Positions 1-6,234 of a stretch of 8,975 nt of DNA are shown in pieces. Made by a program: the position numbers and the translations under genes. The notes beneath the pieces are model-generated. The model was given only the letters and a program-made list of their open reading frames with translations, searched no databases and had not been told where the DNA came from. How positions within the stretch are numbered: position 1 is the stretch's first letter; each line of letters opens with the position of its first letter. This DNA comes from Clostridia bacterium (GTDB lineage Bacteria > UBA6262 > WVXT01 > JAUXBS01): assembly GCA_030618495.1 (NCBI GenBank), contig JAUXDE010000073.1, positions 1 to 8,975 of the forward strand, given 5' to 3'.

Positions 1-243
1 CTAACATATCTTTACATATGCTGGAAGTATTTTGCTTCAGCGTCAAGGAACGAAGAGTGAGAATACTGTACGTATGTGAACGATGAGTGACGCCGACGAT
101 GGACAAAAAACGACAGCCCTTCGGGAAGGGCATCATTTGGACGTATTCTGCGTCTTTCCTTCTCACCATATTCTCGATATGCTTTCGTCGTCCTTCCTTG
201 AATCCGTCTCAAAACCTGCCCTTCATATGTCAAGATATACTAG
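1..243. repeat. Near-palindromic MITE-like element (left boundary at window edge)
   Basis: The stretch is built as one large imperfect inverted repeat. Bases 1-20 (CTAACATATCTTTACATATG) match the reverse complement of 224-243 (CTAGTATATCTTGACATATG) at 17 of 20 positions. Further in, CAAGGAA at 44-50 mirrors TTCCTTG at 194-200, and TTTTG at 30-34 mirrors CAAAA at 210-214. The middle is a perfect 6-bp hairpin, GCCCTT-CGGG-AAGGGC (116-131). All these pairs share a centre near 122-123.5, so they belong to one symmetrical structure. The arms between the anchors are only loosely similar, which suggests an old copy. No convincing protein is encoded; the one long minus-strand frame (12-233) begins with TTG inside the terminal repeat and is probably incidental. 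A non-autonomous transposable element or a large structured RNA/DNA repeat both fit. Because the left end touches the window edge, its true boundary and any target duplication cannot be seen. Confidence 0.55.
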
Positions 244-316
244 AAGCACCACACCCCTGCCAGAAAACGTAAAAGTTTAAGCCGTTAAAGAGCTTAAGGA
301 TTACGCTAATCTTCAT
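230..316 (-). other. Short 28-codon reading frame after riboswitch 2, ending inside the repeat
   Basis: An ATG at 316-314, 31 bases after the aptamer P1 stem, opens a 28-codon frame beginning MKISVILKLFNGLNFYVFWQ and stopping at TGA 232-230, within the right terminal repeat of the palindromic element. The codons overlap the small hairpin at 299-311 and the weak terminator at 271-297. No good ribosome-binding site is correctly spaced: AAGG directly abuts the ATG. I do not recognise the peptide. It could be a leader peptide, the start of a gene cut off by the element, or chance. Chance is the most likely. Confidence 0.15.
271..297 (-). terminator. Weak terminator-like hairpin downstream of riboswitch 2
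   Basis: On the minus strand TTAAGC (297-292) can pair with GCTTAA (282-277) across a 9-base loop, followed after A-C by four T (274-271). The stem is only 6 bp and AT-rich and the T tract is short, so efficiency would be modest. Its position 50-75 bases after the aptamer is right for an expression platform of the cobalamin riboswitch. Confidence 0.3.
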
Positions 317-346
317 CCTTTTTCATCCGAAAAGCATGACAGTATC

Positions 347-495
347 TTTTACGGGCAGGTTTTCTGACTTCCGGATCGTCCTACTCCCAAAGCCTTCCCA
401 TCACCAGTTGGCGACAGTGACTATTCTCAGGTTTCGTCCCCGGTTACAGCGGCGGGACCGTGGTCGATTATAACGACCTTCCCTAACCCGTAAAA
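347..495 (-). promoter_or_regulatory. Cobalamin riboswitch 2 (full-size class I architecture)
   Basis: The minus strand contains the conserved blocks of a cobalamin (AdoCbl-type) riboswitch in the right order: a purine-rich start with GGGAAGG, the CCGCCGCTGTAACCGG segment (456-441), GGGGACGAAACC, the GTCACTG box (421-415), a second GGGAAGG (399-393), and the B12 box AAGTCAGAAAACCTGCCC (370-353). The P1 stem is a perfect 9 bp: TTTTACGGG (495-487) with CCCGTAAAA (355-347). It starts 5 bases after the cobS stop codon on the same strand, so it regulates a gene beyond the left edge. A small hairpin at 311-299 shows AGCG (307-304), which can pair with CGCT (451-448) of the presumed L5 loop, a possible L5-L13 kissing contact. 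The family assignment is firm; the expression platform is inferred. Confidence 0.93.
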
Positions 496-500
496 CAAAG

Positions 501-1238
501 TTATACTACAAAAGCTATTAATGCTATCAATACTATTACTTCAATGATTTCACCGGTTGCGCCGATAGTGTCACCCGTTATTCCTCCAAGTTTCTTTTTG
601 AAGAAATGAGTTATCAGGAACACAGCCGTGAAAACAATCAGGCATATAACAATTCCCTGGAAGGATTTCAGAATAAATGCAAGAGCCAGTGTAAATACGG
701 TCGCTATTGATAATTCTTTGATTCCTGTATTATCTATATATGACTTACCCGTTCCGTCCTCCCTTGCGTATTTTGAGATGCTTGCCGATATGACCATGGC
801 CCACCTGCCAAGCATTGGCGCCAGCATAAGAGCCGGCAAGGCATTTGCGGCGATTATTTCCTTTATTAACATGTATTTAAGCAGCATAAGGCAAATGAGG
901 CCGGTTGTGCCCATTACGCCCAACCTGCTGTCTTTCATTATATTAAGGGCGTCTTCCCTGCTTTTACCGGCATAAAGGCCGTCGCAGGTATCGGCAAAAC
1001 CGTCAAGATGCAGACAACCCGTCATCAATGCCAGTAGTATTAACAGTAATGCGCTTGTTACGGTAACAGGCAGGACTTTGGGCATGTACAAACCAGCAGT
1101 GTAGAGTACGGTTCCTATAAGCAAACCTACGGCAGGAAACCATATCATTGAACCGGCTTTATCCCTGTCGCTTACCTCCCCCCTTATTCTTACAGGCAAT
1201 ACCGTTAGAAACTGCAATGCCAGCAGTATTCTTTTCAT
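501..1238 (-). CDS. cobS: Adenosylcobinamide-GDP ribazoletransferase (cobalamin synthase)
   Basis: CobS is the membrane enzyme that joins adenosylcobinamide-GDP to alpha-ribazole or its 5'-phosphate, giving adenosylcobalamin (phosphate) and GMP. The 245-aa length is normal for the family. The N-terminus has the typical ALQFLTVLPV pattern (residues 7-16) and the acidic conserved motif GCLHLDGFADTCDGL spans 74-88, with H77, D79, D83 and D86. It is followed by the conserved ALNIMKDSRLGVMG (97-110). Several long hydrophobic segments fit a polytopic membrane protein. The ATG overlaps the cobT stop codon by four bases (ATGA), with GGAG upstream inside cobT, so translation is probably coupled. It is the last gene of the btuFCD-cobCUTS cluster; a second riboswitch begins 5 bases after its stop codon. 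Identification by motif is firm. Confidence 0.96.
   Translation of the reverse strand: MKRILLALQFLTVLPVRIRGEVSDRDKAGSMIWFPAVGLLIGTVLYTAGLYMPKVLPVTVTSALLLILLALMTGCLHLDGFADTCDGLYAGKSREDALNIMKDSRLGVMGTTGLICLMLLKYMLIKEIIAANALPALMLAPMLGRWAMVISASISKYAREDGTGKSYIDNTGIKELSIATVFTLALAFILKSFQGIVICLIVFTAVFLITHFFKKKLGGITGDTIGATGEIIEVIVLIALIAFVV
503..530 (-). promoter_or_regulatory. Candidate promoter for riboswitch 2, inside the end of cobS
   Basis: A TTGATA (530-525) and a TAGTAT (508-503) separated by 16 bases lie in the last codons of cobS. Transcription from them would begin near 496, exactly where the riboswitch P1 stem begins. That fit is the main support; the boxes deviate from consensus and the region is AT-rich coding sequence, so chance is possible. 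Confidence 0.35.
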
Positions 1239-6131: not shown

Positions 6132-6234
6132 CTTCCCGCGAAGGTTATATCAATAAACAGGTTCTCGGACTTCCTTGTTTCAGGTTACCGTTGCGGGGCA
6201 GTGGCCGAATTTCACAGCCTTCCCCTGCTTATTG
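6132..6234 (-). promoter_or_regulatory. Cobalamin riboswitch 1 (compact form) controlling btuF
   Basis: The minus strand carries GGGGAAGGC, a CTGTGAAATTCGG segment, GCCACTGCCCCGCAACGGTAA-type core (6205-6185) and AAGTCCGAGAACCTG, a variant B12 box. The P1 stem is 11 bp with one G-U: CAATAAGCAGG (6234-6224) with CCTGTTTATTG (6161-6151). The aptamer is only about 84 nt, without the long insertion and separate GTCACTG/GGGAAGG module seen in the second riboswitch, so it resembles the compact class. After P1 comes a hairpin CTTC-GCGG-GAAG (6143-6132) whose GCGGG (6139-6135) is complementary to CCCGC (6197-6193) of the presumed L5, the classic L5-L13 kissing contact. A strong terminator follows. 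Confidence 0.9.

Follow-up and report, generated by a model that had tools for sequence, protein, structure and literature searches.

The window, the whole 8,975-bp stretch of DNA analysed here, is the start of contig C107 in a 1.69-Mb draft genome of a Clostridia bacterium (G000). Its first 254 bases are a single clipped copy of a non-coding, near-palindromic repeat family of 265 bp, and a cobalamin riboswitch follows (Table 1). The element sits between this riboswitch, which runs from 506 to 337, and the minus-strand gene expected past the contig edge, and it probably occupies the 5′ leader of a B12-controlled transcript, downstream of the riboswitch. Farther along, an AdoCbl-II riboswitch at 6151–6234 on the minus strand lies upstream of a run of minus-strand genes, which begins with a periplasmic binding protein, an ABC permease-like ORF and an ATPase, a probable system for the uptake of B12 or corrinoids, and continues with a phosphatase-like ORF, cobU, a cobT-type gene and cobS.

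Table 1. Positions of the element copy, its symmetric parts and the neighbouring riboswitch in the window (a point in the strand column, no strand assigned).
Feature	Position	Strand	Remarks
Element copy, probable MITE	1..254	.	Aligns with intact copies along its whole length except for the clipped 5′ end
Left terminal inverted repeat, inner part CTAACATATCTTTACATATG	1..20	+	17/20 identical to the reverse complement of 224-243
Internal arm CAAGGAA	44..50	+	Exact mirror of TTCCTTG at 194-200
Central hairpin GCCCTT-CGGG-AAGGGC	116..131	.	6-bp stem, CGGG loop, centre at 123.5
Internal arm TTCCTTG	194..200	-	Partner of 44-50
Right terminal inverted repeat	224..254	-	Inner part 224-243, variable triplet 244-246 (CTT on the minus strand), outer part GTGTGGTG 247-254
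Cobalamin riboswitch	337..506	-	RF00174, 95.6 bits

The terminal match reported in the preliminary description, in which bases 1–20 agree with the reverse complement of 224–243 at 17 positions, is confirmed and was reached by none of 20,000 shuffles, the best of which gave 14, and the mirrored internal arms proved to be exact. The central hairpin likewise exists, but its centre lies at 123.5 and not at 122. The idea that the entire 243 bp folds on itself holds to the extent that mirror identity across 1–243 amounts to 44%, compared with 25 ± 4% in shuffles; the interior of the element is, however, only partly self-complementary. The predicted DNA fold of window bases 1–254 has a z-score of -3.3, and the RNA fold of an intact sister copy one of -7.7. 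What had to be revised were the limits of the element, placed at 1 and 243, and the repeat length of 20 bp. The symmetry continues to base 254 (AAGCACCACAC), 11 bp past base 243, the left side is cut by the contig edge, past which the first 11 bp (GTGTRGTGNNN) are lost, and the intact copies display a terminal repeat of 31 bp. Continuation of the symmetry past base 243, named beforehand as a sign against a discrete element, is thus literally present, its cause being the clipping at the contig edge together with a right end misjudged by 11 bp. The pattern GTGTRGTGNNNCTAACATANCTT matches the window at 254–232 with 2 mismatches, and the right border has CC where TA normally stands outside the element.

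A BLAST search of the host genome with window bases 1–243, proposed earlier as a check for several copies sharing the same terminal repeats, returned 39 matches, six of which are nearly full length with 83–96% identity and lie on other contigs. Nearly all matches reaching the right end break off at position 238 of the query, the point at which the window copy diverges from the others. With up to 3 mismatches allowed, the genome contains 58 occurrences of the terminal motif and 0 of the reversed control, and the copy number is approximate, as many copies are truncated or located at contig ends. Intact copies measure 265 bp, or 269 bp with both TA dinucleotides, and have the same ends at unrelated loci. 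The full copies read TA-GTGTRGTGNNNCTAACATA...TATGTTAGNNNCACYACAC-TA with their 31-bp inverted repeats, and the flanks of other copies place the true ends of the element at TA-GTGTRGTGNNNCTAACATATCTT...AAGATATGTTAGNNNCACYACAC-TA. Of 56 ends, 35 are immediately bordered by TA, for which the background is 6.8%; these borders are read from occupied sites, the orthologous flanks (approximately 70–78% identical) being too diverged for a base-by-base comparison with an empty site, and the TA could belong to the repeat instead of being a target duplication. The ORFs of the element match no Pfam family, in agreement with the earlier remark that no recognisable protein lies inside, and an Rfam search with the element gave no family even at E ≤ 1. 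Flanks were joined for 13 copies, with genes starting or ending at the insertion point in most, and the element is located mostly between genes.

Several copies (L012, L013, L015, L018 and L028) carry an internal segment of the CTTCGCTCAGGATC / AAGCTCAGGATCTG type in place of a part of the interior; either these copies form a subfamily, or the segment is a further small repeat. Copies of the family are also interrupted by a second palindromic repeat, whose ends read TACTCTGTCTCATAAATT (L023:1080-1350, L009:60-110 and L094:1-110), and a third with ends GTGTCTTATTAAACAAC is apparently inserted at a TA within a copy (L017:801-1333 and L022:1-240).

Besides G000, the genus was represented by one genome, the Clostridia MAG CSMAG_2805 (G001), which is 76% complete. 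The flanks of twelve copies were joined, and eleven of these, whole or in part, were searched in G001 for the empty sites that the preliminary description had expected in relatives. Eight insertion sites have orthologs there at approximately 70–78% identity, and all eight are without the element, although at three of them (C73, C1 and C116) only one flank aligns well, so that absence means that side together with no element match nearby. The window flank at 255–2300, searched in the same 76% complete genome for the empty site of the window copy itself, found no match, a result that is uninformative at this level of completeness. G001 carries copies of its own at other places. The family is missing from another 58 genomes, of which four belong to the same order and the others are more distant, and plasmid, phage and viral collections searched for the element or its ends yielded nothing; among the genomes searched, the family is thus found in G000 and G001 only. 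Some contigs of the two genomes are nearly identical, as the comparisons of L018 with L108 and of L013 with L106 show: C105 of G000 and C208 of G001 share 99.96% over 2.3 kb, and C163 of G000 and C47 of G001 share 99.8% over 1.5 kb, compared with 70–78% for other orthologs. Such pairs are either cross-binned contigs or a very recent transfer, and the independent presence of the family in G001 therefore rests on other contigs, for example the copy-bearing C178, which is not cross-binned because elsewhere it is only 71% identical to its G000 ortholog.

Taken together, the family consists of many dispersed copies with common ends, TA at most of these ends, species-specific insertion, a mostly intergenic location and no protein domain. 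These properties, the eight element-free sites and the lack of an Rfam family support the earlier reading of the element as a MITE, and the best explanation, with a probability of about 0.88, is a non-autonomous, TA-ended MITE of approximately 265 bp, whose mobility was most likely supplied in trans by a transposase resembling those of Tc1/mariner/IS630 elements, an enzyme either lost since or absent from the assembly. Such an enzyme would bind the 31-bp terminal repeats, excise the element, insert it at TA and duplicate the TA, and the long inverted arms would make the copies prone to deletion. The transposase family is deduced from the TA borders alone. The full-length transposon sharing these ends, suggested earlier as a further check, did not emerge from the draft assembly, which breaks at repeats: each end that was read led to the common short interior, to a truncated copy or to the edge of a contig, and none belonged to an element that carries a transposase gene. 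For the descriptive class of MITEs an autonomous partner is looked for but is not a requirement. A search of G000 for DDE_3 (PF13358, IS630-type) gave no match, which in a draft assembly is not decisive, and one for DDE_Tnp_1 in G000 and G001 gave nothing; the family is not classed here among the IS630/Tc1/mariner-mobilised elements.

The same sequence features have to be weighed against two other origins. The very stable fold of the intact copy, the pairs maintained through two-sided changes at 6 positions and the intergenic location of the copies, one of them in a riboswitch leader, would also be expected of a structured regulatory RNA or another conserved functional repeat that is kept for its fold and not spread by transposition. 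This appears highly improbable, because positional conservation is lacking, the element being missing from every orthologous site recovered in the sister species; the sharp borders set by the terminal repeats and TA, the many truncated copies, the overall unfavourable covariation term of RNAalifold (+2.32) and the absence of an Rfam match also argue against it. Marginally more improbable still is that a Y1 tyrosine transposase (RAYT) mobilises the element as a palindrome of the REP/REPIN or IS200/IS605 kind. In favour are its palindromic form, its mainly intergenic location and a single Y1_Tnp gene in G000 (C61:1466-1789, L205), in an IS200/RAYT-like open frame of 219 aa, but the terminal motif, sought beside this gene, was not found, and a 265-bp unit with 31-bp inverted ends and TA borders differs from the stem-loops of REP/REPIN sequences, which measure 20–40 bp and are tagged by GTAG or CGTC (PMC3733652).

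Approximately 20 solo TA-GTGTRGTGNNNC-TA motifs are present in G000, followed by unrelated DNA and no element, and nearly all are of one length, with 12 nt between the TAs. Six solo sites were aligned to G001; in the best-resolved comparison, that of L100 with L180 at a gene end, the G001 site is without the motif, and at the other five the motif was not seen, with a poor alignment around the site. An old regulatory motif was rejected as their origin, given that none occurs in the four same-order genomes, controls gave 0 in G000 and the motif is absent from the one clear orthologous site. The solo motifs are most plausibly remnants left by lost copies, and they might have arisen by deletion between short repeats (ACTA or CTA) present in both ends or as a scar of excision by the transposase. 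In the commonest subtype each end contains ACTA, and a deletion running from one of these repeats to the other gives exactly the 16-bp relic; products of 21 bp (C10:2467) and 22 bp (L115), predicted from neighbouring short repeats, were each seen once, and two predicted longer-repeat products (27 bp) were not seen. True excision footprints of a Tc1/mariner-like enzyme that cuts approximately 12 nt inside the 5′ ends, which would be compatible with the MITE reading, are the less likely origin. The number of solos and their nearly uniform length speak for such footprints, and excision of Stowaway/mariner elements is known to leave the TSD plus a short end sequence (PMC4561436), but the mapped cleavage sites of known IS630/mariner members lie 2–3 nt inside, 2 nt in ISY100 (PMC2170065), and slippage between the ACTA direct repeats yields the same 16-bp product, with the predicted 21- and 22-bp products also occurring.

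The two ends of a copy tend to be alike. In 8 of 13 copies the left and right ends carry the same variable triplet (TTA/TTA, CTT/CTT, TCT/TCT, AAT/AAT and TTT/TTT), where shuffling predicts 2.2 (permutation p=0.00016), and other end columns change in pairs, such as AU:7/UA:3 and GC:4/AU:3. Relatedness among copies contributes to the triplet match, as subfamilies share ends, yet the ends of one copy still clearly co-vary. This pattern would follow either from copying between the arms of the palindrome or from a requirement that the two ends match, and hairpin or template-switch correction between the arms, or selection on the paired ends, may keep the ends of a copy alike. Insertion into a pre-existing palindrome that already bore the variable triplet was rejected, as no such palindrome was seen without an insertion. 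A combined scheme, in which a TA-targeting element leaves a uniform 12-nt end piece upon excision and its two ends are kept identical by arm-to-arm copying, is improbable; if true, it would imply either a life cycle based on the palindrome or a cleavage geometry that differs from those of the IS630/mariner enzymes known.

Bacterial MITEs with 5′-TA-3′ termini, a TSD and no protein have been described before (Delihas 2007, PMC2229807), and the present family resembles the Correia/NEMIS, RUP and ERIC types in being short and non-coding, with inverted ends, 5′-TA-3′ termini, a mostly intergenic location and a strong transcript hairpin (PMC2229807). Its sequence is unrelated to theirs, as judged by inspection rather than alignment, it is longer (265 bp compared with 100–200 bp) with longer inverted ends of 31 bp, and, unlike them, it turned up in one genus only in these searches; RUP is linked with IS630-Spn1, whereas no partner IS was found here. 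With IS630/Tc1/mariner elements, such as ISY100, and Stowaway MITEs the family shares the TA borders and relics composed of TA, an end sequence and TA, but no IS630-type transposase was found in the G000 draft, and the relics keep 12 nt of the end where the mapped cleavage sites predict 2–3 nt (PMC2170065). To the REP/REPIN sequences with RAYT it is similar as a set of dispersed intergenic palindromes, and differs from them in size, terminal structure and TA borders, with the lone Y1 gene lacking these ends. The family is previously undescribed, while the kind of mobile DNA is ordinary, a bacterial MITE of the TA-ended type, and it gives a bacterial lineage with little sampling a new MITE family. 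With its solo scars and matched ends, it lends itself to the study of how a palindromic element decays and keeps its symmetry when no transposase is resident.

In the window, a mobile palindrome of the family lies in what is probably the leader of a gene with a cobalamin riboswitch and could change how that gene is controlled, and the hairpin, a predicted fold, may alter RNA stability in transcribed copies. Element bases 206–221 are complementary to riboswitch bases 353–368 at 14 of 16 positions, possibly by chance.
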